In this document: positions 1 through 12,213 of the stretch, one piece after another
Layout: every line of letters begins with the position of its first letter
Numbering within the stretch: position 1 is the first letter of the stretch
Source: an uncultured Clostridia bacterium
Lineage (GTDB): Bacteria > Bacillota > Clostridia > Oscillospirales > Oscillospiraceae
Direction: 5' to 3'
Length of the DNA stretch: 12,326 nucleotides
Assembly (NCBI GenBank): GCA_945926565.1
Contig: CAMELY010000025.1
Location: forward strand, 1-12,326
The notes under the pieces: model-generated
Seen by the model: the letters and a program-made list of their open reading frames with translations, nothing else
Database searches by the model: none
What the model was told of the DNA's origin: nothing
Position numbers and translations under genes: made by a program

Positions 1-25
1 CGCCGATGCCCTGAATGGTGAGCAT
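1..25 (-). CDS. ptsI: Enzyme I of the PTS (ptsI), 5' end only
   Basis: Only the first eight codons are inside the window. On the minus strand they read ATG CTC ACC ATT CAG GGC ATC GGC (M-L-T-I-Q-G-I-G), which fits the N-terminus of Enzyme I, where a short strand leads into a G-I-(G/A) motif. The start is supported by a purine-rich ribosome binding site (CGGGGGAGC on the minus strand, 31-39) six bases upstream. It lies 43 bases downstream of ptsH, the expected partner: Enzyme I takes phosphate from phosphoenolpyruvate and passes it to His15 of HPr. The identity rests mainly on position after ptsH, because the catalytic region is outside the window. Confidence 0.8.
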
Positions 26-30
26 GGATG

Positions 31-39
31 GCTCCCCCG
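31..39 (-). promoter_or_regulatory. Ribosome binding site of ptsI
   Basis: The minus strand reads CGGGGGAGC ending six bases before the ATG at 25. It is the feature that marks the truncated reading frame at the left edge as a real gene start. Confidence 0.7.
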
Positions 40-68
40 CTCAGAATGGAACGGATGGAGAGACGTTC

Positions 69-326
69 TTACAGGTTTGCCTGGAAGAATGCCTCGAGTG
101 CCTCGATTGCCGCGTCCTCGTCCGGACCCTCGGCCTTGATCGTGACGACGTCGCCCTGCTTGACGCCCATGCTCATGAGCATCATGAGCTGGGTCAGCTT
201 TTTGGTGACATCGCCCTTGGTGATCGTGCAGACCGACTGGAACTGCTTGGCCTCCTTGGCCAGCAGGCCGGCGGGACGAGCGTGGATACCCAGAGCGTCG
301 GTGATGGTGTAATCGAACTGTTTCAT
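69..326 (-). CDS. ptsH: Phosphocarrier protein HPr
   Basis: An 85-residue HPr of normal length. It is the cytoplasmic phosphocarrier that takes phosphate from Enzyme I and gives it to sugar-specific EIIA domains, here the EIIA part of the neighbouring permease. The catalytic motif G-I-H-A-R-P-A-G places the active histidine at His15 with Arg17 next to it, exactly as in the family. The region around residue 46, where Bacillus HPr has the serine phosphorylated by HPr kinase, reads K-K-L-T-Q-L-M-M-L-M-S-M-G-V, so position 46 is Gln. The serine at position 52 aligns with Ser52 of B. subtilis HPr, not Ser46. The ATG at 326 has a GGAGG eight bases upstream (335-339). The gene follows ptsG by 56 bases and precedes ptsI by 43 bases, as in the B. 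subtilis ptsGHI operon. Identification is secure; loss of Ser46 regulation is inference. Confidence 0.96.
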   Translation of the reverse strand: MKQFDYTITDALGIHARPAGLLAKEAKQFQSVCTITKGDVTKKLTQLMMLMSMGVKQGDVVTIKAEGPDEDAAIEALEAFFQANL

Positions 327-376
327 GATAAATTCCTCCGTTTTATTCTACGATACTACTGTTTGACTGATTGGAA

Positions 377-390
377 AGGGCTTCAGCCCT
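377..390 (-). other. Small hairpin over the ptsG stop codon
   Basis: The minus strand reads AGGGCTGAAGCCCT, a six-base-pair inverted repeat around the TGA stop of ptsG, followed by TTTCC. It is too short, and its U-run too weak, for a convincing terminator. It may be a processing or mRNA-stability element between ptsG and ptsH, which would help raise HPr and EI levels independently of the permease. That role is a guess. Confidence 0.3.
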
Positions 391-2524
391 CGACCTTGAG
401 CAGGTCTGCGCCCGCCTTGACCGCGCCCTCGGCGAGCGGCTGGACGGATGCGTAATCGTCCGAGTTGCAGACGATCATGGGGGTGACGAGCGGGTAACCG
501 GCCGCCTTGATGGCGTCCACGTCGAACGAGATGAGCAGGTCGCCCTTCTTGACGGACTGCTCGGCCTCGACGTGCGCTTCAAAATGCTGGCCGCCCAGCT
601 TGACGGTGTCGATGCCGATGTGGAGCAGGATCTCGACGCCCTCGGTGGTGGTCAGGCTGACCGCGTGTTTGGTGTCGAACACGGCCTCGATCACGCCGTC
701 GGCGGGCGCGTACAGCTTGCCCTCGCTGGGGTCGATGGCGATGCCTTCGCCCATGACGCCCGAGGCGAACGCCTCATCGGGCACATCGGCCAGCTTGACG
801 ATCTGACCGTTCAGGTGCGCGCCCAGAACCGCACTCTGCTTGGTCTGGGCGGGCGCTGCCGGTGCTGCGGGAGCGGCAGGAGCTTCCGCGGTAACGGGAG
901 CGGCGCTAATCTGATCGGCCTCCGGGGTCTCCAAGAAGTCGACCAGGTTGGACTTGATGACCGCGACCTGAGGTCCGTAGATGACCTGCACGCCGTTGCC
1001 CTTGTGGATGACGCCGGATGCGCCCGAGCGCTTCAGCATCGCGTCGGAGACCTTTTCCGCGTCGCGGACGGTGACGCGCAGGCGGGTCGCGCAGCAGTCA
1101 ACGTCAGAGAGGTTCTGCTTGCCGCCCAGACCCTGCAGGATCATCGCGGAAACGGGGTCGGAAACAGCGGCGGGGGAAGAGCCATCCGGGCCGATGCCGG
1201 TCTTGGCCTTGAAATCGGAGCGGGTGTACAGCTTGGTCTCCTCATCGTCCTCCTCACGGCCCGGGGTCTTGAGGTTCATCTTGCGGATCATGAAGGAGAA
1301 GGTGAAATAGTAGAGGAAGAAGTATACAACGCCGACAACGACGATCCAGATCCAGTGGGTCTTGGCGTTGCCCTGCAGGATGCCGAACAGGGTCAGGTCG
1401 ATGATGCCGCCCGAGAAGGTCATGCCGACGCCGACGTTCAGGATGTGCATCAGCATATAGGACAGGCCGGCGTAAACGCAGTGTACGGCGTACATCAGGG
1501 GCGCGACGAACAGGAAGGTGAACTCGATGGGCTCGGTGATGCCGGTCAGCATCGCGGTCAGCGCGGCCGAGAAGAGCAGGCCGCCGACGACCTTCTTCTT
1601 TTCAGGACGCGCGCAGCGGTACATCGCGAGGGACGCGCCGACCAGACCGAAGATCATGAAGGGGAACTTGCCGGACATGAAGCGGGTCGCGGAGACCGAG
1701 AAGACCTCGGTGCTCTTGGAGGCCAGCTCGGCGAAGAAGATGTTCTGCGCGCCCTGAACGAGCACGCCGTCGATCGTGGCCGAGCCGCCCAGCGCGGTCT
1801 GCCAGAAGGGCATATAGAACACATGGTGCAGGCCGAAGGGGATCAGCGCGCGCTCGATGATGCCGTAGATCCAGGTGCCCACATAGCCGGAGTTGATGAC
1901 CAGATTGCCCAGCAGAGCGATGCCGCCCTGAACCACTGGCCAGATATAGAACATGACGATGCCGACGACCAGATAGACGGCGGTGGAGATGATGGGGACA
2001 AACCGGGTGCCGCCGAAGAAGGAGAGCACCTGGGGCAGCTGGATCTTATAAAAGCGGTTGTGCAGGGCGGCCACGCCCAGGCCGACGATAATGCCGCCGA
2101 ACACGCCCATCTGCAATGTGGTAATGCCCAGGGTGGAGGTGGTGGTGTTCTCCGCCATGGCCTCCACGCCGCCTGCGGCGTTGATCATGGCGCTGATGGC
2201 GGTGTTCATCACCAGGTAGGCGATGGCGCCGGACAGAGCGGCCACTTCCTTCTCCTTTTTCGCCATGCCGATAGCCACGCCCATGGCAAAGAGCAGGGCC
2301 AGGTTGTTGAACACGGCGCTGCCGCACTGGTTCATAATGTCCAGAACGGTGTAGATGGGGCTGCCGGGATAGATGACGCCGGTCAGGTTGTAGGCCTCCA
2401 GCATGGTTTCGTTGGTGAAGGAACTGCCGATTCCCAGCAGCAGGCCGGCCACCGGGAGCAGGGCGATGGGCAGCATGAAGGAGCGGCCCACGCGCTGCAG
2501 TACGCCAAAAATTTTGTCTTTCAT
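383..2524 (-). CDS. ptsG: PTS glucose-type permease, EIICBA fusion
   Basis: A 713-residue membrane permease that imports a hexose and phosphorylates it with phosphate from HPr. Domains in order: EIIC membrane domain (about 1-415) with the family motifs L-P-F/I-P-F-G-L-H-H near residues 228-234 and T-G-I-T-E-P-I-E-F near 327-335; EIIB (about 455-535), whose motif D-C-C-A-T-R-L-R places the phosphorylated cysteine at about Cys478; an Ala/Pro-rich linker near 543-560; and EIIA (about 565-713) with histidines at about 620 and 635, the second in L-L-H-I-G-I-D-T-V being the phosphorylated one. Two adjacent ATGs occur. The one at 2524 sits six bases after AGGAGG and is preferred; the one at 2527 is only three bases away. 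A further upstream in-frame codon at 2584 lies inside the leader RNA and lacks a ribosome site. The leader carries a GlcT-type RAT and terminator. Glucose is the likely substrate because of the glcT-ptsGHI order; N-acetylglucosamine (NagE) cannot be excluded. Confidence 0.92.
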   Translation of the reverse strand: MKDKIFGVLQRVGRSFMLPIALLPVAGLLLGIGSSFTNETMLEAYNLTGVIYPGSPIYTVLDIMNQCGSAVFNNLALLFAMGVAIGMAKKEKEVAALSGAIAYLVMNTAISAMINAAGGVEAMAENTTTSTLGITTLQMGVFGGIIVGLGVAALHNRFYKIQLPQVLSFFGGTRFVPIISTAVYLVVGIVMFYIWPVVQGGIALLGNLVINSGYVGTWIYGIIERALIPFGLHHVFYMPFWQTALGGSATIDGVLVQGAQNIFFAELASKSTEVFSVSATRFMSGKFPFMIFGLVGASLAMYRCARPEKKKVVGGLLFSAALTAMLTGITEPIEFTFLFVAPLMYAVHCVYAGLSYMLMHILNVGVGMTFSGGIIDLTLFGILQGNAKTHWIWIVVVGVVYFFLYYFTFSFMIRKMNLKTPGREEDDEETKLYTRSDFKAKTGIGPDGSSPAAVSDPVSAMILQGLGGKQNLSDVDCCATRLRVTVRDAEKVSDAMLKRSGASGVIHKGNGVQVIYGPQVAVIKSNLVDFLETPEADQISAAPVTAEAPAAPAAPAAPAQTKQSAVLGAHLNGQIVKLADVPDEAFASGVMGEGIAIDPSEGKLYAPADGVIEAVFDTKHAVSLTTTEGVEILLHIGIDTVKLGGQHFEAHVEAEQSVKKGDLLISFDVDAIKAAGYPLVTPMIVCNSDDYASVQPLAEGAVKAGADLLKVEG

Positions 2525-2530
2525 CATGTA

Positions 2531-2536
2531 CCTCCT
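2531..2536 (-). promoter_or_regulatory. Ribosome binding site of ptsG
   Basis: A perfect AGGAGG on the minus strand. It is six bases before the second of two tandem ATGs and three before the first, so it favours the start at 2524. Confidence 0.8.
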
Positions 2537-2603
2537 CAAAAAATTGTGGAATCGTGGCGGGCAGCGGCTGCCGCAGCTGCGCAACTGCGAGAGAGACTGC
2601 CTG

Positions 2604-2663
2604 AAAATATATAAAACCCATCCCCGGCGGGCAGAACGTTACTTGCTCACCGGACATGGGTTT
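2604..2663 (-). terminator. Conditional terminator in the ptsG leader
   Basis: On the minus strand the arms at 2663-2650 (AAACCCATGTCCGG) and 2627-2614 (CCGGGGATGGGTTT) pair over 14 positions with one G/G mismatch and one G-U pair. A U-rich run (TTTTATATATTTT) follows. The 5' arm shares six bases (2658-2663) with the 3' strand of the upstream RAT, so the two structures exclude each other. This is the arrangement of LicT/GlcT-controlled sugar operons: without active GlcT, transcripts should end about 80 bases before ptsG. Confidence 0.88.
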
Positions 2664-2692
2664 AGCCCGCTTTCAAAAACGGTAACTATCCC
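2658..2692 (-). promoter_or_regulatory. Ribonucleic antiterminator (RAT) before ptsG
   Basis: The minus strand reads GGGATAGTTACCG, a ten-base apical loop, then CGGGCTAAACCC. It matches my recollection of the RAT pattern bound by BglG/LicT/SacT-family proteins (GGATTGTTACTG...GCAGGCAAAACC). Three short stems are visible: GGG/CCC, TAG/CTA and CCG/CGG. They are separated by asymmetric internal loops typical of RATs. It lies between the glcT stop and the ptsG start and overlaps the terminator 5' arm. Bound GlcT would stabilise it and let transcription run into ptsG. The family assignment is strong; the cognate protein is inferred to be the adjacent GlcT. Confidence 0.9.
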
Positions 2693-2725
2693 AACACCGC
2701 TAGTATTTTGCGGCTGGAGATTCAA

Positions 2726-3574
2726 TTATTCAGAGCCGAGATTAATTCGCTTCAGGTGGATGGTCAGGTAGATCAGCTCCTCGTCGGAGAGCTCCTTCTG
2801 ATAGGTGTTTTTGATATATTCCCCGATGCACTGGGCGCATTTGAAATGCTGCCGGCAGTTTTTCATGATCAGCTGGCGGAACAGGACGTCGTGCTCGCCT
2901 TGATCGTCCGGCATCAGCCTGCCCTGGAACAGGCGCTGGGCGAAGTAACGCAGGTGAACTACAAAACGGCTGAAATTCAGCGATTCCCGGTCAAATTCCT
3001 TTTGATAGAAGTATTCCACCACCGAGATCGTCCCCTCAATGAGCTTTGTGATGTCGTACATCTCGCTCATATTGGTGTTCAGCTCCGCGTTGACGATGTG
3101 CAGGGCGATGAAGGCCGCCTCGTCCTCGTGGAGTTCGACGCCCAATTGCTGTTGAATGGCTTTCAGGCAGTAGAGCCCCAGCTGATACTCGGAAGGGTAG
3201 TAGCACATGACGGCGCCCTTGAGGGGGTTGCTGAACTCAATTCCATCCTCCTTGCGCTTGATGGCAAAGCTGATATGGTCGGCCAGTGTGATCAGCAAAG
3301 ACTCGTTCAGCTTCTGGGGAATCTGCTGCCGGATGTGGGTGATCAGCTCCTCGGTGAGGTTCAGGTGCTCGATGGGAATCTTCTCCACCAGCTCCCGGAG
3401 CTTTTTCTGCTCGGTTTTCTCCTCCATCCGATAGGTGCGCTCAATCAGCGCCGGATCCAGAATCTCGCCCCGGTGGCGCTGGAAACCAATGCCCCGGCCG
3501 GTGACGATCAGTTCGCTGCCCTTTTCGTCCACGGTACACAAAATGTTGTTGTTGATGACTTTCTTGATCCGCAC
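2726..3574 (-). CDS. glcT: BglG/LicT-family transcription antiterminator, GlcT-like
   Basis: A 282-residue antiterminator that binds RAT hairpins in nascent sugar-operon RNA and prevents termination. Layout: N-terminal CAT RNA-binding domain (about 1-55, beginning M-R-I-K-K-V-I-N-N-N, a hallmark start), PRD1 (about 65-170) and PRD2 (about 175-282). The four regulatory histidines phosphorylated by the PTS are visible at about His100 (A-D-H-I-S-F), His159 (A-L-H-I-V-N-A-E), His207 (V-V-H-L-R-Y-F) and His273 (T-I-H-L-K-R-I). The first three fall at the positions I recall for B. subtilis LicT. That agreement supports the GTG start at 3574, which has an AAGGGGTGA ribosome site about eight bases upstream. 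The earlier in-frame GTG at 3586 overlaps that site and is unlikely. The gene lies just upstream of ptsG, as glcT does in Bacillus, and its own leader also has a RAT and terminator. GlcT is preferred over LicT because of the ptsGHI context. Confidence 0.92.
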   Translation of the reverse strand: MRIKKVINNNILCTVDEKGSELIVTGRGIGFQRHRGEILDPALIERTYRMEEKTEQKKLRELVEKIPIEHLNLTEELITHIRQQIPQKLNESLLITLADHISFAIKRKEDGIEFSNPLKGAVMCYYPSEYQLGLYCLKAIQQQLGVELHEDEAAFIALHIVNAELNTNMSEMYDITKLIEGTISVVEYFYQKEFDRESLNFSRFVVHLRYFAQRLFQGRLMPDDQGEHDVLFRQLIMKNCRQHFKCAQCIGEYIKNTYQKELSDEELIYLTIHLKRINLGSE

Positions 3575-3596
3575 TGCGCTGCTCACCCCTTACAAC

Positions 3597-3651
3597 AAAA
3601 AAACCAGCTCCATCCAATATCCCCAACCCAGAGATACTAAATAGAGTTGGT
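3597..3651 (-). terminator. Conditional terminator in the glcT leader
   Basis: On the minus strand, ACCAACTCTAT (3651-3641) pairs with ATGGAGCTGGT (3613-3603) over 11 positions with one mismatch and one G-U pair, and a run of seven T follows (3603-3597). It ends about 10 bases before the glcT ribosome site. The 5' arm overlaps the 3' strand of the RAT at 3646-3680, so it should form only when that RAT is not stabilised. Confidence 0.78.
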
Positions 3652-3680
3652 CAAGCCCGCTTTACCGGTAACATTCCAAC
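3646..3680 (-). promoter_or_regulatory. Second RAT, in the glcT leader
   Basis: The minus strand reads GTTGGAATGTTACCG, a six-base loop, then CGGGCTTGACCAAC. It shares GTTACCG and AAAGCGGGCT with the ptsG RAT in the same relative positions. Outer GTTGG/CCAAC and inner CCG/CGG stems form; the middle stem is weaker than in the ptsG copy. It begins only about eight bases after the predicted transcription start and overlaps the next terminator, implying that GlcT stimulates its own synthesis. Confidence 0.8.
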
Positions 3681-3694
3681 ATTTCGTTACAGGA

Positions 3695-3723
3695 ATCATA
3701 GCACGAACCCGGGTGGCTGTCAA
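3695..3723 (-). promoter_or_regulatory. Sigma-A promoter of glcT
   Basis: The minus strand has a perfect -35 TTGACA (3723-3718), a 17-base spacer and -10 TATGAT (3700-3695). Transcription should begin near 3688. A/T-rich tracts lie upstream and could act as an UP element. Such a strong promoter fits a gene whose expression is then limited by leader termination. Confidence 0.88.
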
Positions 3724-3766
3724 TTGACCAAATTTGGAAAGCAAACTTTTTGTAGCATTGTACAAT
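3719..3766. repeat. Three short palindromes upstream of glcT
   Basis: Three perfect 10-base palindromes lie here: GTCAATTGAC (3719-3728, overlapping the glcT -35), CCAAATTTGG (3728-3737) and ATTGTACAAT (3757-3766). They could be operator sites or chance A/T symmetry. None matches the catabolite cre consensus. The gap between glcT and the next gene (3575-3881) otherwise holds the glcT leader elements, its promoter and the promoter of the small plus-strand gene; 3767-3821 shows nothing recognisable. Confidence 0.3.
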
Positions 3767-3821
3767 TTGATGGTGGTGTTTTTGGTGAATTGGCCCAGCG
3801 GCAGATGCAGCGGCCCGCAGC

Positions 3822-3850
3822 TTGCCCTTTCAGGGCCCGACTGCTATAAT
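3822..3850 (+). promoter_or_regulatory. Promoter of the small membrane-protein gene
   Basis: A -35 TTGCCC (3822-3827), a 17-base spacer and a consensus -10 TATAAT (3845-3850). Transcription would begin near 3857, about 10 bases before the ribosome site of the following short gene. This rules out the longer reading frame that begins with TTG at 3822. Confidence 0.75.
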
Positions 3851-3881
3851 GAAGAAAAAACCAGAACGGGAGGGGATGCCT

Positions 3882-4070
3882 GTGGAAATGCCGGAAAAAG
3901 GCCAGCCGCCTCATCTCCAGGAGCAGCTGGAGCAGGAGTGGCGGAAGGAGATGGGCCTGCCCCTCAAGCTGCTCATGCTGCTGCTGGTGCTGATCACCTA
4001 CGGAGCGTCCATGACCATGATCGGCCTGTGCCGTGTGGGGGAAAAGCTCAGACAGTGGCGGCAGAGCTGA
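3882..4070 (+). CDS. Small single-pass membrane protein of unknown function
   Basis: A 62-residue protein with a GTG start at 3882, eight bases after the GGAGG core of GGGAGGGG (3868-3875). In-frame ATG codons at 3849 and 3876 are, respectively, without a ribosome site and too close to it. The N-terminal 24 residues are charged and Gln/Glu-rich (Q-E-Q-L-E-Q-E-W-R-K-E), then one hydrophobic helix runs from about residue 26 to 50 (L-P-L-K-L-L-M-L-L-L-V-L-I-T-Y). A short basic tail ends R-Q-W-R-Q-S. I do not recognise a family. A single helix with a basic tail suggests a small inner-membrane protein. Its own promoter, good ribosome site and sensible composition argue that it is real. No terminator is visible after it, so it could be read together with the next gene. 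Confidence 0.65.
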   Translation: MEMPEKGQPPHLQEQLEQEWRKEMGLPLKLLMLLLVLITYGASMTMIGLCRVGEKLRQWRQS

Positions 4071-4114
4071 TCCTTCGGTTTAAGCAGATTTTAACCCAAT
4101 ATGCCGAGATTCTG

Positions 4115-4123
4115 TGCTATAAT
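4115..4123 (+). promoter_or_regulatory. Extended -10 promoter of the YbjQ-family gene
   Basis: A consensus TATAAT at 4118-4123 is preceded by TGC, an extended -10. No good -35 is seen at 16-18 bases. The start of transcription would be near 4130, about 25 bases before the AGGAGG ribosome site. Confidence 0.55.
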
Positions 4124-4169
4124 CAAGTCATCAATTCTGCGCCCAGGCGCAGCACAGGAGGGAATTTTC

Positions 4170-4490
4170 ATGATTGTTGTCACAACCCCCAGCATTGCGG
4201 GAAAAGAGATTGTGGGCTACCGGGGCGTCGTCTTCGGCGAGGTGGTGGCCGGCGTCAACTTTGTCAAGGACTTTGCGGCAGGGCTGTCCAACTTCTTCGG
4301 CGGCCGCTCCAGCAGCTATGAGGATGAGCTGATTCAGGCCCGGGAGCAGGCCATGAGCGAGATGATGCAGCGGGCCCACCAGGCCGGGGCCAACGCCATC
4401 GTGGGCGTGGACATCGACTATGAGGTGCTGGGTGCTGACAACGGCATGCTCATGGTCACCGCCTCGGGCACCGCCGTTGTGGTGGAATAA
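4170..4490 (+). CDS. YbjQ/UPF0145 family protein
   Basis: A 106-residue protein of the YbjQ (UPF0145) family, usual length 100-110. Seen: an N-terminal strand [10 protein letters not shown], then the characteristic [15 protein letters not shown] block, a helix with [10 protein letters not shown], and the hallmark [15 protein letters not shown] followed by a C-terminal strand [11 protein letters not shown]. The family is sometimes called a heavy-metal-binding domain and forms pentameric rings; its biological role is not established. It has no signal peptide or membrane helix. The ATG at 4170 has AGGAGGG seven bases upstream (4156-4162). A longer frame from 4101 includes the promoter and is rejected. 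The gene is a single unit ending at a strong terminator. Confidence 0.9.
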
Positions 4491-4514
4491 GCGGGCATCA
4501 AGTGCACAGGCTGT

Positions 4515-4548
4515 GGCCGGACATCGCTGAGGTGTCCGGCCCTTTTCC
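4515..4548 (+). terminator. Intrinsic terminator after the YbjQ-family gene
   Basis: GGCCGGACA (4515-4523) pairs perfectly with TGTCCGGCC (4533-4541) over nine base pairs with a nine-base loop, followed by CTTTTCC. It is 24 bases after the stop codon. Confidence 0.88.
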
Positions 4549-4566
4549 GTCTGAGGGTGGTTTTTC

Positions 4567-4595
4567 TTGCAATATGGGGACAATATTGGTAGAAT
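4567..4595 (+). promoter_or_regulatory. Promoter of the EamA transporter operon
   Basis: A -35 TTGCAA (4567-4572), a 17-base spacer and -10 TAGAAT (4590-4595). It follows the upstream terminator and leaves a short leader of about 20 bases before the start at 4623. Likely it also drives mrnC, rqcH and the acetyltransferase gene. Confidence 0.75.
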
Positions 4596-4622
4596 AGACC
4601 CCGACAGAAAGAAGGAATTGAC

Positions 4623-5495
4623 ATGTCCAACCGCACGAAAGGAATTGTGTGCATCATCCTCTCCGCCCTTTGCTTTGCCCTGATGAACGCCTTTGTCCGC
4701 CTCTCCGGCGACCTGCCCAGCGTCCAGAAGAGCTTTTTCCGCAATTTTGTGGCCCTCTTTGTGGCTCTGTTTATCCTGCTCCGGGAGGGAGGGGGCTTCC
4801 GGCTGAAGCAGGGCACGCTGCCCTTTCACCTGCTCCGCTCCATTGCGGGGACGGTGGGCATCCTCTGCAACTTCTACGCCGTGGATCATCTGGTGCTTGC
4901 CAACGCCTCCATGCTCAACAAGATGTCCCCCTTCTTTGTGCTCATCTTCTCCTACCTGATTCTCCGGGAGAAGCTGAAGCCCGCCCAGGTGCTTATCGTC
5001 ATCGCGGCCTTTGCGGGGAGCCTGTTCATCATTAAGCCAACCCCCGCCAACCTGGAGCTGATGCCCTCTCTGCTGGGCCTGCTGGGAGGACTGGGGGCCG
5101 GCTTTGCCTACACTATGGTGCGGAAAATGGGCCTTATGGGGGAGCGGAGCGCGCTGATCGTCTTCTTTTTCTCCACCTTCTCCTGCGTGGTGACCCTGCC
5201 CTGGGTGATCGCTCACTATGTCCCCATGACCGGGGGGCAGGTGCGCACCCTGCTGGGGGCGGGGCTGGCCGCCGCCGGGGGACAGTTCGGCATCACCAAG
5301 GCCTACACCTACGCCCCGGGCAAGGAGGTCAGCGTCTACGACTACACCCAGATTCTCTTCTCCGCCCTGCTGGGTTACTTCCTCTTCGGCCAGGTGCCGG
5401 ACGGCTGGAGCTTTTTGGGCTATGTGCTGATCATCGGCGCGGCAGTGGTCATGTTCCTCTATAACAATGGGAAGCTGGGAAAGCGGGCGGCCTGA
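4623..5495 (+). CDS. EamA/DMT-superfamily transporter
   Basis: A 290-residue polytopic membrane protein of the drug/metabolite transporter superfamily, with two EamA repeats. About ten hydrophobic helices are visible, starting with G-I-V-C-I-I-L-S-A-L-C-F-A-L-M-N. The first repeat ends in the family pattern of helices around A-N-A-S-M-L-N-K-M-S-P-F-F-V and L-I-L-R-E-K-L-K-P-A-Q. The second repeat has G-G-Q-F-G-I-T-K-A-Y-T-Y-A-P-G-K and ends with a lysine/arginine-rich tail (G-K-L-G-K-R-A-A). Members export or import amino acids, nucleotides, sugars or cofactors; the substrate cannot be told from sequence. The ATG at 4623 has GAAGGA six bases upstream. It is the first gene of a probable four-gene transcription unit, with mrnC beginning 28-40 bases later. 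Confidence 0.9.
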   Translation: MSNRTKGIVCIILSALCFALMNAFVRLSGDLPSVQKSFFRNFVALFVALFILLREGGGFRLKQGTLPFHLLRSIAGTVGILCNFYAVDHLVLANASMLNKMSPFFVLIFSYLILREKLKPAQVLIVIAAFAGSLFIIKPTPANLELMPSLLGLLGGLGAGFAYTMVRKMGLMGERSALIVFFFSTFSCVVTLPWVIAHYVPMTGGQVRTLLGAGLAAAGGQFGITKAYTYAPGKEVSVYDYTQILFSALLGYFLFGQVPDGWSFLGYVLIIGAAVVMFLYNNGKLGKRAA

Positions 5496-5535
5496 CCCCG
5501 CTTACAGCGACTGATACAGTAAAATGGGTGAAACG

Positions 5536-5958
5536 ATGAGAGACTACTTTGACATTCAGCTGACCCCCGACCAGCTCCGGGCTATGAGCAGCCTGGCCCT
5601 GGCCCACATGGGGGACTGCGTATATGAGATCTTAGTGCGGGGCTGGCTGTGCAGCGGCGGCCTGGAGGTGAACAAAAACCTCCACCGGGAGACGGTGGCT
5701 CTGGTGCGGGCGGGCGCCCAGGCGGACGCCCTGGACAAAATTCTCCCCCTGCTCACCCCAGAGGAGACCGGGGTGGTGCACCGGGGCCGCAACGCCAACG
5801 TCCATATGATTCCCAAGGGCGCCAGCCGGGGGGAGTATCGCAAGGCCACCGCCCTGGAGGCCCTGTTCGGCTGGCTCTACCTCCAGCACAAAACCGAGCG
5901 GATCAACCAGCTCTTTGACGCCATTATGACCCCGGCCGGGGGAGAGGAGGATGCCTGA
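5536..5958 (+). CDS. mrnC: Mini-ribonuclease III
   Basis: A 140-residue RNase III-like enzyme lacking the double-stranded RNA-binding domain. In Bacillus, MrnC finishes maturation of the 23S rRNA ends. Seen: the catalytic signature L-A-H-M-G-D-C-V-Y-E near residues 22-31 (Asp and Glu binding metal), the conserved R-G-R-N-A-N-V-H block and the second acidic motif T-A-L-E-A-L-F-G-W-L-Y-L near 112-123. The start is uncertain. ATG at 5536 has GGTGA four bases upstream, while ATG at 5524, four codons earlier, has no ribosome site in front; 5536 is preferred. The stop TGA shares its A with the ATG of rqcH, so the two are translationally coupled. Both gene products act on ribosomes. Confidence 0.93.
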   Translation: MRDYFDIQLTPDQLRAMSSLALAHMGDCVYEILVRGWLCSGGLEVNKNLHRETVALVRAGAQADALDKILPLLTPEETGVVHRGRNANVHMIPKGASRGEYRKATALEALFGWLYLQHKTERINQLFDAIMTPAGGEEDA

Positions 5959-7718
5959 TGCCATTGGATGCCGCCTGCCTCACCGCCCTGGTGGGGGAGC
6001 TGCGCCCCACGCTGGAGGGGGCCAAGGTCGATAAAATCTTCCAGCCGGGACAGAACGAGGTAGTGCTCAACCTCCGCACCAAGGCGGGGAACCAGAAGCT
6101 GCTGCTCACCGCCAATCCCTCCCATCCCAGATTGCAGTTTACCGAGCTGAACCGGGAGAATCCCGCGGCGCCCCCCATGTTCTGCATGCTGCTGCGCAAG
6201 CATCTCACCGGGGCCCGGGTGCTGTCCGTCACCCAGCCCCCCATGGAGCGGGTGGTGGATCTGGAGCTGGAGACGCTGAATGAGCTGGGGGATCGGGTCA
6301 GCCGCCACCTGATTCTGGAGGCCATGGGCCGCCGCTCCAACCTGATTCTCACCGACGAGAACGGCCGGATCACCGACTGCCTGCGCAAGGTGGACGCGGA
6401 GCTGTCCCAGCTCCGTCCGGTGCTCCCCGGTCTCTATTACCACCTGCCCCCCGCCCGGGAGGACAAGCGGAACCCCCTGGAGACGGATCAGGAGACGCTG
6501 ACCGCCCTGCTCTCTGCCGCCCCGGCGGAGACGGAGGTCAGCGCCTGGCTGCTGGACACCTTCGCCGGGCTCTCTCCCCTCCTCTGCCGGGAGATCGCCC
6601 ATCGGGCGGGCGGGGACGTGGGGATCCGGCTGAACGCCCTGGATGAGCCGGGCCGGGAACGGCTGCTGGACAGCTTCCAGACCGTGCTGGAGGGCATTCA
6701 CGCGCCCCAGCCCACCGCCCTCTTCAAAGCGGGGGAGCCCAAGGACTTCTCCTTCCTGCCCATCGGGCAGTACGAGGGCTATCTGGAGGCGAAGGGCTAC
6801 GACAGCTTCTCCCAGCTTCTGGACGATTTCTACGCCGCCCGGGAGACCGGGGAGCGGGTGAAGCAGAAGGGGCAGTCCCTCATCAAGAGCCTGACCAACG
6901 CCCGGAACCGCCTGGCCAGGAAGATACAGCTCCAGACCAAGGAGCTGGCTCAGGCCCGGGACCGGGAGCAGTACCGGATCAGCGGCGACCTGATCACCGC
7001 CAACCTCTATCAGATGCGCAAGGGACAGAAGTCGTTGACTGCCGTCAACTATTATGATCCGGAGTGCAAAGAGCTGACCGTGGCCCTGGATCCCCTGCTC
7101 ACTCCCCAGCAGAACGCCGCCAAGTACTATAAGCGCTACACCAAGGCCAAGACGGCGGACGCCGTCCTCACCGAGCAGCTGGCCCAGGGCCGGGAGGAGC
7201 TGGACTACCTGGACAGCGTGCTGGAATCCCTTCAGCGGGCAGAGGGGGAGCGGGATCTGAACGAGATCCGCCAGGAGCTGGAGGACGGGGGCTATCTCCG
7301 CACCCAGAAGAACGCCAAAAAACAGGCGAAGCGACCCCGGCCCCAGCCATTGGAATTTACCTCCTCCGCCGGACTGCGCATCTCGGTGGGGCGGAACAAC
7401 ACCCAGAACGACCAGCTCACCTGCAAGCTGGCGGGGAAGGGGGACATCTGGCTGCACACCCAGGGCATCCACGGGGCCCACGTCATCCTCTGGGCCCAGG
7501 GACAGGAGCCGGACGGGGAGAGCCTGTTGGAGGCCGCCCAGCTGGCCGCCTGGTTCTCCCAGGGCAGGGGCGGCAGCAAGATTCCGGTGGACTACACCCC
7601 GGTGAAATATGTGAAAAAGCCCGGCGGCGCCCGGCCCGGCATGGTGGTCTACACCACCTACCGTACCGCCTATGTGACGCCGGAGGAGACGCTGGTCAAG
7701 CGGCTGGCGGGAAAGTGA
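5958..7718 (+). CDS. rqcH: RqcH, ribosome quality control factor (NFACT family)
   Basis: A 586-residue protein of the RqcH/Rqc2/NEMF (NFACT) family, formerly annotated as fibronectin-binding protein. On stalled 50S subunits RqcH recruits tRNA-Ala and adds C-terminal alanine tails, marking the nascent chain for degradation. Domains: NFACT-N (about 1-200, with N-E-L-G-D and M-G-R-R-S-N-L-I-L), helix-hairpin-helix and coiled coil (about 200-440, charged and Gln/Glu-rich), and NFACT-R (about 455-575, with [13 protein letters not shown] and [14 protein letters not shown]). Residues 97-98, which carry the D-R motif needed for tRNA binding in B. subtilis, read E-R here. Length is close to the usual 570. 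The ribosome site is GGAGAGGAGG (5941-5950), seven bases before the ATG and inside mrnC. Coupling to mrnC suggests joint expression. Confidence 0.95.
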
Positions 7719-8323: not shown

Positions 8324-9850
8324 TTACTTGTCCCCGCCGACAGGAGCGCTCTCCTGCTTGCGGGAGGAGAGGACCTTGAGCACCGCCAGCACCAGGGCCA
8401 GGAGAACCAGACCCACCAGGAAGCTGACCACGACGTTTTTGACGAAGCCGGCCACAATGTAGGTGACAAAGGAGATGCAGGCCACCAGGATGGCGTAGGG
8501 CATCTGAGTGGAGACGTGGTTGACGTGCTCGCACTGGGCGCCGGCAGAGGCCATAATGGTGGTGTCGGAGATGGGGGAGCAGTGGTCGCCGCAGACGGCG
8601 CCGGCCATGCAGGCGGAGATGCAGACGATGGCCATGGGGTTATCCATGGAGAACACGTTCTGCACGATGGGGATCAGGATGCCGAAGGTGCCCCAGGAGG
8701 TGCCGGTGGCGAAGGCCAGCAGGCAGCCGATGACAAAGATGATGGCGGGCAGGAAGGCCTGGAAGCCCTGGGCGTAGGTCTCCACCACGGCGGCCACATA
8801 CTCGGCGGCGCCCAGGCTGTCGGTCATGGCCTTCAGCGTCCAGGCGAAGGAGAGAATCAGGATGGCGGGCACCATGGCCTTGAAGCCCTCGGGCAGGCAG
8901 CCCATGCAGCTGTGGAAGGAGAGCACCTTCCGGGAGACATAGAAGGCGATGGTCAGCAGCAGGGCAATGGAGGAGCCGATGACCAGGCCCACAGAGGCGT
9001 CGCTGTTGGCGAAGGCCTCCACAAAGCTGGCGCCGCTGAAGAAGCCGCCGGTGTAGATCATGCCCAGCACGCAGCTGACGATGAGGATAATGATGGGCAA
9101 AATCAGGTCGATGACAGAGCCCTTGCCCTTGACGTCGTCCTCAGCCAGCACATAGCCGGAGGGGCCGGTGGTGAGCAGGTCGCCCTTCTCCTGGGCGTTG
9201 CGCTCATGGAGGGCCATGGAGCCGAAGTCCACCTTGAGCAGGATAATGCCCACCATAAAGATGAGGGTGAACAGGGCGTAATAGTTGTAGGGGATGGCGC
9301 TGATGAACAGGCCCAGGCCGTCAGCTCCGTCCACGAAGCCGGTGACGGCGGCCGCCCAGGAGGAGATGGGGGCGATGATGCACACCGGAGCGGCGGTGGC
9401 GTCGATCAGATAGGCCAGCTTGGCCCGGGAGACCTTGTGGTTGTCGGTGACAGGCCGCATAACGCTGCCCACGGTGAGGCAGTTGAAGTAGTCGTCGATG
9501 AAGATGACCACGCCCAGCAGCACGGTGGCCAGCTGCGCGCCCACCCGGGACTTGATGTGGGTCTGGGCCCAGCGGCCGAAGGCGGCGGAGCCGCCCGCAT
9601 TGTTCATCAGGCAGACCATGGCGCCCAGAATGACCAGGAAGATGAGAATGCCCATGTTCCAGGAGTCGGAGAGCACCGAGATAAAACCGTCGTTGATGAT
9701 ATGGGTCAGCGTGCCTTCAAAGCTGAAGCCGGCGTAGAACAGGCCGCCCACCAGGATGCCGACGAACAGGGAGCTGTAGACCTCCTTGGTGATCAGCGCC
9801 AGCGCAATGGCCACGATGGGCGGAACCAGCGCCCAAAAAGTAGCGTACAT
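8324..9850 (-). CDS. Na+/H+ antiporter NhaC-family transporter
   Basis: A 508-residue polytopic membrane protein of the NhaC superfamily. Seen: 11-13 hydrophobic helices, starting M-Y-A-T-F-W-A-L-V-P-P-I-V-A; the family core with V-V-I-F-I-D-D-Y-F-N-C-L-T-V-G (about 118-132), S-R-A-K-L-A-Y-L-I-D-A-T-A-A-P-V (about 146-161), F-A-T-G-T-S-W-G-T-F-G (about 396-406) and C-G-D-H-C-S-P-I-S-D-T-T (about 439-450). The paired Asp residues in helices are candidate ion-binding sites. Family members include Na+/H+ antiporters, malate/lactate antiporters (MleN) and amino acid carriers (MetT, LysW), so the substrate is open. The ATG at 9850 has AAGGA seven bases upstream. It has its own promoter and a leader with a terminator-like hairpin. 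Confidence 0.88.
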   Translation of the reverse strand: MYATFWALVPPIVAIALALITKEVYSSLFVGILVGGLFYAGFSFEGTLTHIINDGFISVLSDSWNMGILIFLVILGAMVCLMNNAGGSAAFGRWAQTHIKSRVGAQLATVLLGVVIFIDDYFNCLTVGSVMRPVTDNHKVSRAKLAYLIDATAAPVCIIAPISSWAAAVTGFVDGADGLGLFISAIPYNYYALFTLIFMVGIILLKVDFGSMALHERNAQEKGDLLTTGPSGYVLAEDDVKGKGSVIDLILPIIILIVSCVLGMIYTGGFFSGASFVEAFANSDASVGLVIGSSIALLLTIAFYVSRKVLSFHSCMGCLPEGFKAMVPAILILSFAWTLKAMTDSLGAAEYVAAVVETYAQGFQAFLPAIIFVIGCLLAFATGTSWGTFGILIPIVQNVFSMDNPMAIVCISACMAGAVCGDHCSPISDTTIMASAGAQCEHVNHVSTQMPYAILVACISFVTYIVAGFVKNVVVSFLVGLVLLALVLAVLKVLSSRKQESAPVGGDK

Positions 9851-9876
9851 AGTTGTTTCCTTCCTCTCATATCGTT

Positions 9877-9917
9877 TTCTCTTTTTGACAGTATTCGCCG
9901 TCCTGAAAAAAAGAGAA
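9877..9917 (-). other. Second hairpin in the nhaC leader
   Basis: Minus-strand TTCTCTTTTT (9917-9908) pairs perfectly with AAAAAGAGAA (9886-9877) across a 21-base loop. It takes up the U-run of the preceding hairpin, so the two would compete for it. It leaves the ribosome site free. Confidence 0.45.
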
Positions 9918-9947
9918 GGGGGGCCAGGGTACCTATACCCCAGCCCC
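9902..9947 (-). terminator. Terminator-like hairpin in the nhaC leader
   Basis: On the minus strand GGGGCTGGGGTA (9947-9936) pairs with TACCCTGGCCCC (9931-9920) over 12 positions including two G-U pairs, with loop TAGG. CCTTCTC and seven T's follow. It begins about seven bases after the predicted nhaC start of transcription. It may stop read-through from the two-component genes, attenuate nhaC, or both. The T-run is slightly offset from the stem, so strength is uncertain. Confidence 0.65.
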
Positions 9948-9960
9948 TTTGCTGTAGCTT

Positions 9961-9989
9961 ATTTTACAATAGTGCTCGGCCTGTGTCAA
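9961..9989 (-). promoter_or_regulatory. Promoter of the nhaC gene
   Basis: A perfect -35 TTGACA (9989-9984), a 17-base spacer and -10 TAAAAT (9966-9961) on the minus strand. Transcription should begin near 9954, giving a leader of about 100 bases. No alternative promoter is seen between the hairpin and the ATG. Confidence 0.85.
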
Positions 9990-10052
9990 TTTTTTCCTGA
10001 AAATTTTCGATATTTTTGTGGAGAAAACGAAAAACAGAGCGCAGGAAGAGGG

Positions 10053-11501
10053 TCAATTGGTCTGATTTTGCGGTTCCCGGCAGACCGGAATGGTGAGGAC
10101 TGCGGAAAATTCCGTCTCCTCCTTCCGGTATTGGAAGACGCCGCCCAGCTGCTGAACGATCCGCTCGCAGGTCTTGAGGCCGATGTTGGTGCTCTCCACC
10201 GGGTTGGGATTGTGGGGGACGAAGTTGTGCAGGGACACCCGGATGCAGTCGCCCTCCAGCTTCTGTTCAATGGACACCGGACGGCCGGGATCGGCGTACT
10301 TTTCGATATTGGAAAACAGGTTGTCAAACAGCCGCTTGACATAGACCGGATCCACCTCCACCAGGACCTGGCTTTCCAGACGCCGGTTTTCCACCTGCCA
10401 GCCCTGCTCCTGGAGCAGCACCTCGTGCTCGCCGATGAGCTGATCCAGCAGCACCCGGGCGTCGGTGAGCTCCAGGTTCAGGTCACAGTCCCGGTGGCCG
10501 AAGACCAGAAAGTACTGGAACAGCTTGTCCGCCAGCTCCTTGAGCTGAAAGGCGTTCTTTTTGCAGATGCCCAGATAGCTCCGGTAGGTCTCCTCCTGGC
10601 TGAAATCCCCCTCGTCCAGCAGCTCCAGGAAGCCCAGCAGGACGGTGAGAGGGGTGCGGATGTCATGGCTCATCCGGGTGATCAGGTCGCTGTTGGCGTT
10701 CCAGGCCTCCTGTTCCGCCCGCATCTCCCGCATAATGGAGTAGCGCATGGAGTCCACATGCTGGGCCAGGACGCCGATCTCATCCCGGTTGCGCACGGTG
10801 ATGTGCCCCTCCAGATTGCCGCCGGCGATCTTTTCCACCTCCCGGGAGAGCTTGATGATCTGCTGAATGGTGCTCTGGTGATACCAGAGCATGACAAAGA
10901 CAAAGATGGCGATGGACACCGCATAGGTGGCGATGGTGACGATCTCATAGAGAGGTTCCTCGGAGAAATCATAGATCGAGACCAGATAGGTACCGTCAGC
11001 AAATTCCACCGGGGCGCTGCCCATGCCGTAGCCGAAGGACTCCTCCATACTGTCGTCCTGAGTTGCCACCTCCGGGTTGTCCGCGGACTTCTCCAGAGAG
11101 GCGGCGGGAATCTCATCACTCTGGGCGGCATCGGAGATACCGTCGCCCTCCCCGGCGAAGGCGGAATAATAGGTGGCTTCATCCCACCAGCCGGAGTCCA
11201 CCAGCACCTTGCCGCTCTTATCCTCCACCATCAGATAGATGTGGTTCTGATTTTTGGCCCAACGGACGATTTCCCGGGCGTTGTCCACATGCAGCTGCTT
11301 CTCCTGGACGAACTGAGAGAAATGGTTCAGCGCCTTCCGGCAGCGCTCGTTAGAAGCTTCCTCATCCAGATAGATATGATCAATGCTGTAGTCGCCCACG
11401 ATTTTGACCGTGGCGCCGCAGGCCAGGCCCACTGCCAGGGCCAGCAGCAGGACGATGATAAACTTGATCTGGAGAGAATGGAAGCTGCCCCGCTTAGTCA
11501 A
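10053..11501 (-). CDS. Sensor histidine kinase
   Basis: A 482-residue membrane histidine kinase partnered with the upstream response regulator. Layout: helix 1 (about 14-33), an extracytoplasmic sensor of about 150 residues with an acidic low-complexity stretch near 115-160, helix 2 (about 186-207), HAMP (about 208-256), HisKA with M-S-H-D-I-R-T-P (phospho-acceptor His279) and HATPase_c with the N-box L-F-D-N-L-F-S-N-I-E-K-Y-A (about 391-403). The usual D-x-G-x-G box is not recognisable (L-H-N-F-V-P-H-N-P-N near 424-433), and the G2 region is S-T-N-I-G-L-K-T-C. The start is taken as TTG at 11501, inside the regulator's last codons. GGGAGGGGG lies about ten bases upstream, and the frame then begins M-T-K-R-G-S-F, a cytoplasmic tail before helix 1. 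The longer frame to 11642 lies within the regulator gene. The stimulus is unknown. Confidence 0.9.
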   Translation of the reverse strand: MTKRGSFHSLQIKFIIVLLLALAVGLACGATVKIVGDYSIDHIYLDEEASNERCRKALNHFSQFVQEKQLHVDNAREIVRWAKNQNHIYLMVEDKSGKVLVDSGWWDEATYYSAFAGEGDGISDAAQSDEIPAASLEKSADNPEVATQDDSMEESFGYGMGSAPVEFADGTYLVSIYDFSEEPLYEIVTIATYAVSIAIFVFVMLWYHQSTIQQIIKLSREVEKIAGGNLEGHITVRNRDEIGVLAQHVDSMRYSIMREMRAEQEAWNANSDLITRMSHDIRTPLTVLLGFLELLDEGDFSQEETYRSYLGICKKNAFQLKELADKLFQYFLVFGHRDCDLNLELTDARVLLDQLIGEHEVLLQEQGWQVENRRLESQVLVEVDPVYVKRLFDNLFSNIEKYADPGRPVSIEQKLEGDCIRVSLHNFVPHNPNPVESTNIGLKTCERIVQQLGGVFQYRKEETEFSAVLTIPVCREPQNQTN

Positions 11502-12213
11502 TTTGGTACCCCCTCCCGTAGACGGTACGGATGAGGACGGGGTTGGCCGGGTCGTCTTCCAGCTTTTTGCGCAGCCGCTGGATATAGACCATAATGTTGT
11601 TGTCTGAGGAGGGCATATACTTGCTCTGCCATACCGCCTCATAGAGGGTCTTCACATCCAGAATCTCCCCCCGGTGGCTGAGCAGGAAGAGGAGGAGATC
11701 CATCTCCTTGTCAGTAAGCTTGATCTCCTGGCCGTGCTTTTTCACCTTGCGCAGCCGGGTATCCACCGACAGGGCGTCGGCAGCGCTGCCCCACAGGGTG
11801 GAGACGCTCTTCATGCCTCCGTAGACCCGGTAGCGGCGGATGAGGGAGCTCACCTTCATCAGCAGCTCGCTCTGGGAGAAGGGCTTGGCCAGGTAGTCGT
11901 CGCCTCCGTTTTCATAGGCCATGGCCTTGTCCTGCTCGGTGTTCCGGGCAGTGAGAAAGAGCAGGGGGGCCTTGGTGAAGATCCGGATCTGGCGGCAGGC
12001 CTCCAGGCCGGAGAGACCGGGCATCATAATGTCCATCAGAATCAGATCCAGCTCCGGATAGCGCTCGGCCATTTTCACCGCCTCCTGTCCGTTGGCGGCC
12101 TCCAGAACCTGATAGTTCTTGTTCTGCAGCAGAATGCGCAGCAGCTGCCGGATTTCCGGCTCATCATCTGCCACCAGAATGGTGCCGTTGGAGGGTTGCT
12201 TTTCCGCGCTCAT
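11494..12213 (-). CDS. OmpR-family response regulator
   Basis: A 239-residue DNA-binding response regulator. The receiver domain (about 10-125) has the acidic pair D-D near 16-17, the phospho-acceptor Asp61 in L-I-L-M-D-I-M-M-P, Thr88 in F-L-T-A-R and Lys110 in Y-L-A-K-P-F. The C-terminal winged helix (about 145-239) shows L-T-D-K-E-M-D-L-L-L-F-L, the recognition helix region D-N-N-I-M-V-Y-I-Q-R-L-R-K-K-L and the end wing R-T-V-Y-G-R-G-Y-Q. All phosphorylation residues are intact. The ATG at 12213 has AAGGA about nine bases upstream. Its last eight bases overlap the kinase start. Targets are unknown; the neighbouring nhaC is one candidate. Confidence 0.95.
   Translation of the reverse strand: MSAEKQPSNGTILVADDEPEIRQLLRILLQNKNYQVLEAANGQEAVKMAERYPELDLILMDIMMPGLSGLEACRQIRIFTKAPLLFLTARNTEQDKAMAYENGGDDYLAKPFSQSELLMKVSSLIRRYRVYGGMKSVSTLWGSAADALSVDTRLRKVKKHGQEIKLTDKEMDLLLFLLSHRGEILDVKTLYEAVWQSKYMPSSDNNIMVYIQRLRKKLEDDPANPVLIRTVYGRGYQID

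Follow-up and report, generated by a model that had tools for sequence, protein, structure and literature searches.

An antiterminator encoded in the window, the whole 12,326-nt stretch of DNA that was analysed, very probably opens both RAT switches of its own operon, RAT1 in its own leader and RAT2 ahead of a PTS transporter gene, and so forms an autogenous positive loop in which two gates follow one another. The switch is real and conserved, is most likely autogenous, and follows a known design that is found here with a glucose-family transporter. All features of the antiterminator system in the window lie on the minus strand, to which the coordinates given for it below refer. Protein binding, control by phosphorylation and read-through at RAT1 and RAT2 are expected by analogy with known members of the BglG/LicT family.

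The leader starts with a sigma-70-type promoter (TTGACA-17-TATGAT, 3723-3695), which agrees with the consensus at 11 of 12 positions and carries TG ahead of the -10 element, as the description of a near-perfect promoter in the first-pass annotation had implied. It is the only promoter-like site on the minus strand of window positions 1-6500, and sites scoring at least 9/12 are present within 70 nt upstream of the RAT in 60 of 67 leaders, the window included. With the start of transcription placed 7 nt past the -10 element, at about 3688, the stem of RAT1 (TTGGAATGTTACCGGTAAAGCGGGCTTGACCAA, 3679-3647) begins some 8 nt downstream, in agreement with the hairpin position originally proposed. RAT1 was recognised by pattern, alignment, covariation and a model built from related leaders (R1). 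Also correctly described was an overlapping intrinsic terminator (3652-3597), the 5' arm of which uses the last bases of RAT1, from 3652, and the seven T's of which end at 3597. The leader from 3688 to 3597 folds at -30.4 kcal/mol (z -4.3; 0/200 shuffles equally good), and its best fold is the terminator hairpin of 22 pairs, 3652-3602, running into the T's. RAT1 folded alone reaches -9.8 kcal/mol, and since z is only -1.4 and 19/200 shuffles do as well, it is distinctive by its sequence and not by its fold alone. RAT and terminator compete for ACCAA(C). Forcing the RAT state in the window costs 3.6 kcal/mol (-26.8 versus -30.4 kcal/mol; median cost over 69 leaders, 4.9), and termination is therefore the predicted default, which protein binding could tip; a cost of this size is compatible with a protein-stabilised switch. 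In computed structures with the RAT held closed, an inner hairpin is still possible that no longer abuts the T-run.

The gene behind this leader (2726..3574) encodes a protein of the LicT subfamily of BglG/SacY antiterminators, with an N-terminal CAT RNA-binding domain (CAT_RBD, 68.2 bits; cut-off 25) followed by two PRDs (117.9 bits in two stretches; cut-off 23). Histidines 100, 159, 207 and 273, which we take to be the PRD phosphorylation sites, each align with a histidine of the LicT chain 1tlv. The NCBIfam equivalog model for LicT gives 329.5 bits, above its cut-off of 300, with a query that began at GTG 3586; the corresponding GlcT model was rejected at 228.4 bits (cut-off 320). The gene had at first been called glcT, a name that is not tenable for a protein that fails the curated GlcT model and passes that for LicT, and B. 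subtilis glcT is therefore no orthologue. Translation more likely starts at GTG 3574 than at the first in-frame GTG, 3586: the codon at 3574 stands behind AAGGGG, and the resulting N-terminus, MRIKKVINNN, aligns with the start of the CAT domain in a solved BglG-family protein.

A second RAT beside the same antiterminator gene, which the first-pass annotation had also reported, was found by pattern, alignment and a second model (R2) at 2692-2658, ahead of the EIICBA gene. The 3' end of this RAT2 overlaps a second terminator (2663-2604) that consists of a hairpin at 2663-2614 and a T-rich tail. Folded alone, RAT2 has a z of -2.2, with 6/200 shuffles as good, and it scores 46 bits with R2, a model that has the window in its training set. 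The two leader RNAs do share GTTACCG and AAAGCGGGCT, as had been pointed out, although the AAA is a loop position that is not conserved in relatives. Downstream lie the PTS EIICBA gene (383..2527, start ATG 2527), assigned by profile models to the glucose family (ptsG-like), and an HPr gene (69..326, domain match), the last of the putative operon. Judging from known BglG/LicT members, the antiterminator, EIICBA and HPr genes would be co-transcribed as an operon from the promoter at 3723-3695; a search near RAT2 turned up no promoter that would serve the EII gene alone, though this gene may still be transcribed separately. The HPr gene at 69-326 may specify a dedicated or inducible HPr. The genome of the window has four further HPr-domain matches elsewhere, two of them near full-length and two partial.

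In the proposed mechanism, RNA polymerase would by default be halted by the leader terminator, and a second checkpoint would lie ahead of the EII gene. On transport of the sugar, the EII would cease to keep the antiterminator phosphorylated, and the antiterminator dimer would bind RAT1 and RAT2, holding each hairpin closed. The base of each terminator could then not form, transcription would read through, and the antiterminator would raise its own synthesis along with that of the transporter.

The inducing sugar is most likely glucose, by comparison with known BglG/LicT systems. By sequence, the EIICBA is closest in kind to glucose-specific EII proteins and is not a member by cut-off: its best profile, the glucose IIBC model TIGR02002, gives 540.3 bits, under the cut-off of 591.8, and the other substrate models also stay under theirs (malX, 463 of 632; nag, 452 of 553). 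The closest solved chain is E. coli glucose EIICB at 308 bits, and the next kind of EII, 5iws, presumably a maltose transporter, follows at 181 bits. The same switch could respond to another sugar, such as N-acetylglucosamine or an alpha-glucoside, and the failure of every substrate-specific IIBC or IIABC model to reach its curated cut-off, together with the identical gene order of the known nagY-nagE operon, lends this some weight; it is nevertheless unlikely, as the best model and the best solved homologue are both glucose-specific.

Conservation of the leader in related genomes, suggested at the outset as a check, was clear: RAT1 precedes 66 of 67 related genes, these being the loci, out of 79, with a best segment of at least 54% identity, and the search used a fuzzy RAT pattern with up to four substitutions that matched 0/1340 shuffled leaders. 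Record names among the related loci include Gemmiger, Faecalibacterium and Oscillibacter. The sole exception by pattern is L095, in which R1 finds only RAT2. Among the 12 loci below 54% identity, which were left out of this count, the RAT1 pattern was matched in L096, L097, L100, L104 and L108 and was lacking in L101 (with only 15 upstream bases), L102, L103, L105, L106, L109 and L110. A scan over all T-runs, from which the five low-identity matching loci were left out, detected a terminator overlapping the 3' end of the RAT in 67/67 leaders (the 66 and the window), with 6 to 8 of eight bases, namely the RAT's final five and the three that follow, pairing into the terminator in each. A cruder script that cut the leader at the first T-rich stretch found the overlap in 63/69; its six misses (L072, L081, L084, L089, L093, L107) are read as cuts made before the real terminator, because the all-T-run scan finds the overlap in each of them.

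RAT1 is kept in nearly all related loci, more widely than RAT2. In the interval that separates the antiterminator gene from the one after it, RAT2 was found in 45/70 loci at E<=1 and in 36/70 at E<=0.001, a count in which 29 of the loci had built the RAT2 model; in L091 and L094 the locus is cut off by a contig edge. An overlapping terminator accompanies RAT2 in 25/30 rows, with none found by script for L043, L051, L053, L072 and L073. Some loci, for example L057, L085 and L087, have the leader RAT alone; if their genes are co-transcribed, the self-acting RAT must therefore govern the entire operon there.

The canonical LicT RAT core served as the comparison for these hairpins. Their core has two internal loops, and its pairs are kept across relatives. 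In RAT1, pair 4-25 is A-U in 41/67 and U-A in 26/67 leaders, the search pattern having left its two letters free of each other, and pair 11-20 is C-G in 62/67 and U-A in 5/67. Over 41 distinct rows, both sides change in 5/11 pairs, and 93.5% of cells are paired versus 89.0% in shuffles, none of which (0/500) reached the observed pairing or covariation score; sliding the partners lowers pairing to 13-60%. Further pair types are no more numerous than in shuffles (221/500), and pair 18-23 is unpaired in 25/38 rows. For RAT2 the picture is similar, with changes on both sides in 6/10 pairs, 90.0% paired versus 82.4% shuffled, 0/500 shuffles reaching pairing or score, and further pair types again not above shuffles (500/500). 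The covariation expected of related leaders was thus seen in that paired positions change together, but the independent events on the tree are few: the protein tree needs only two changes at each of the two main RAT1 covarying pairs, which is too few for a sign test and weakens the claim.

In the genome of the window, which is 76.5% complete, one CAT_RBD protein was found, and at this completeness another could have been missed. Scanned with R1 at E<=10, with 150 of 584 first-look candidates scored, the same genome gave only RAT1 (61.6 bits) and RAT2 (20.4 bits). Across 28 genomes of the genus, this one included, R1 at E<=0.1 gave five matches in four genomes, each within about 150 nt upstream of a related gene. 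In 395 genomes of the order a match at E<=0.01 occurred in 22; ten matches of at least 39 bits (window included) all lie ahead of a related gene, and the other 12, at 30-37 bits, are canonical RATs at other genes: seven precede EIIA-type genes, four a gene of the glucosamine-isomerase family (one protein tested) and one another antiterminator gene. Since R1 was built from 67 rows, the window among them, with training loci partly from the same genomes or near kin, its matches are not independent discoveries. The informative part is the absence of strong matches at other genes, within the limits of a filter that scored at most 150 (genus and own genome) or 17 (order) candidates per genome and may have lost weak matches.

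These scans bear on the possibility that RAT1 is opened in trans by a different BglG-family antiterminator encoded elsewhere, with no self-control. The incompleteness of the genome, and the three CAT proteins found in each of two relatives (G009 and G028), leave room for such a protein. It is improbable all the same, given that G025 (96% complete) and G026 (98%) retain the leader RAT and yielded no CAT_RBD protein besides the related one, which makes autogenous control the simplest reading, and given that position 24 of the RAT, U in 66/67 RAT1 leaders and G in one, is A (GGCAA; all 12 by eye) in the 12 weaker matches of the order, those at other genes. Less probable still is that the likeness to a RAT has no regulatory role, the hairpins being a common attenuator or terminating a gene upstream: the unremarkable fold of RAT1 alone and the lack of an Rfam family at gathering score in the window would suit this, but the strong promoter directly upstream implies that no other gene ends at the hairpins, the gene immediately downstream encodes a CAT-domain protein, and the RAT core is nearly invariant over the 67 leaders, in part through selection of the rows by pattern, while loop and terminator vary.

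Other arrangements and copies were met in the same genomes. Six genus genomes (G015, G020, G023, G027, G028, G031) have a more distant antiterminator (30-31% identity) with an R2 match behind its gene, and no RAT was found by a loose pattern in the 400 bases before it; by sequence, this appears to be a layout in which the regulator gene is followed, but not preceded, by a RAT. Of the two copies of the related antiterminator in G009, the one on C84 (L130) matches in two pieces (161 and 92 residues) and keeps its leader RAT. In four genomes that belong to a single genus (g17, family f13), the canonical RATs of L144, L146, L148 and L151 (RAT at 1501) have another antiterminator gene upstream and, downstream, a gene of the glucosamine-6-phosphate isomerase family, with one of the four proteins tested.

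RAT1 differs in detail from canonical RATs. A U·U mismatch at 5-24, between pairs 4-25 and 6-23, is present in 63/67 RAT1 leaders; G at position 24 recurs in L138. In RAT2 the same positions are C-G in 15/30, A-U in 14/30 and U·U in 1/30 rows, and the U-A read in the 12 canonical RATs of the order was seen in neither RAT1 nor RAT2. On the protein side, the CAT domains of the clade have C13 in 67/67, T25 in 66/67 and M50 in 67/67 members, none of which is shared by more than a fifth of the 24 other CAT domains compared. The U at position 24 and these three residues suggest a private recognition code; C13, T25 and M50 could match the RAT variant and, if so, would keep the glucose loop separate from any other LicT-type circuits that the cell contains. 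It is tentatively proposed, as a possibility rather than an expectation, that the self-acting RAT is the primary gate of a glucose-type operon in this Oscillospirales clade, better kept than the RAT before the EII gene and diverged into a code of its own. What is new here is possibly this clade-specific variant, U·U at 5-24, on a glucose-family PTS.

Comparable systems have been described, and are compared here from the available portions of the cited papers. The bglG-bglT-bglH operon of C. acetobutylicum is similar to that of the window in having a RAT and terminator both before the antiterminator gene and before the PTS gene, with one upstream promoter, and BglG-dependent read-through is reported at both RATs; it differs in its beta-glucoside PTS and in a RAT consensus of GGATTGTTACTG-N6or7-CAGGCGAGACC, versus GGGCTTGACC for the RAT1 form, and bglG itself is reported to respond less to sugar than do the genes downstream of the second RAT (PMC12628678). 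In E. coli bglGFB, two terminators likewise flank the antiterminator gene and are bypassed with inducer, in a distant bacterium and under beta-glucosides, CRP and H-NS (PMC9499468). The nagY-nagE operon of E. faecalis also combines antiterminator and EII, and has a RAT overlapping a terminator before nagY, the product of which binds its own leader with a Kd of 4.18 nM; the sugar there is GlcNAc, and no RAT before nagE was seen in the accessible text (PMC9981650, PMC12502629). In S. mutans, a LicT-type gene is followed by a RAT and a PTS gene as in the window, but the RAT between licT and bglP has its own promoter, and no RAT before licT was seen in the part of the paper at hand (PMC1489936). 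The glcT-ptsGHI locus of B. subtilis resembles the window in that the antiterminator gene lies directly upstream of the glucose EII gene with a RAT before ptsG, and differs in a constitutive promoter and in belonging to the GlcT subfamily, which the window protein fails by cut-off (PMC12445079).

An antiterminator gene behind its own RAT is, on the available text of these papers, already known from C. acetobutylicum bglGT and E. faecalis nagYE, with flanking terminators in E. coli bglG. Of the positive feedback proposed in the first-pass annotation, the loop itself stands as the likeliest reading, with a RAT-terminator switch that gates the antiterminator gene and is kept in relatives with paired changes, and with no other CAT-domain protein found in two near-complete relatives; the contrast with B. 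subtilis is overstated. The possible all-or-none glucose response raised there is conjectural, to be set against the smaller response to sugar reported for bglG of C. acetobutylicum. That contrast is right in so far as glcT is called constitutively expressed in the excerpted source (PMC12445079), but it sets different subfamilies side by side, the window protein being LicT-like. No published account of this leader was found in the open-access literature, as far as its text was available, on Faecalibacterium antiterminators, a RAT upstream of glcT, or GlcT/LicT regulons in Clostridia.

With this locus, autogenous antitermination, so far described for beta-glucoside and GlcNAc operons, would reach a glucose-family PTS of gut Oscillospirales. 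If RAT1 gates the regulator, sugar uptake in these bacteria forms part of a positive loop, which sets them apart from B. subtilis, and the presence of two RATs permits a direct test of a graded versus an all-or-none response. A model of RAT1 would also allow annotation of a leader that no Rfam family matches at gathering score in the window. RF03530, bglG-cis-reg, represents a cis element that precedes bglG or licT genes of Bacillota, according to the available part of its description (PMC11477304). Membership of the window leader in this family was rejected at 19.9 bits (gathering score 80; E 1.4), a weak match that appears at relaxed E-values amid chance-level ones. At gathering score, 20 of the related loci gave only OLE and tRNA, with no bglG-cis-reg.

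Elsewhere in the window, positions 10053-12213 of the minus strand encode a two-component system, with a sensor kinase (HisKA, HAMP) and a response regulator with a Trans_reg_C domain. On the plus strand, 5524-7718 holds the gene of a 144-aa RNase III-domain protein, which we take to be Mini-III-like, and then an NFACT-domain gene. Long plus-strand open frames at 371-2614 and 8516-10000, opposite the EII gene and a Na+/H+ antiporter gene, look like shadow frames of coding DNA and not genes. In L098, the closest relative by protein identity (84%), an OLE RNA (RF01071, 454.9 bits; 1745-2373, minus strand) lies on the strand opposite to the leader RAT, some 0.5 kb ahead of it.
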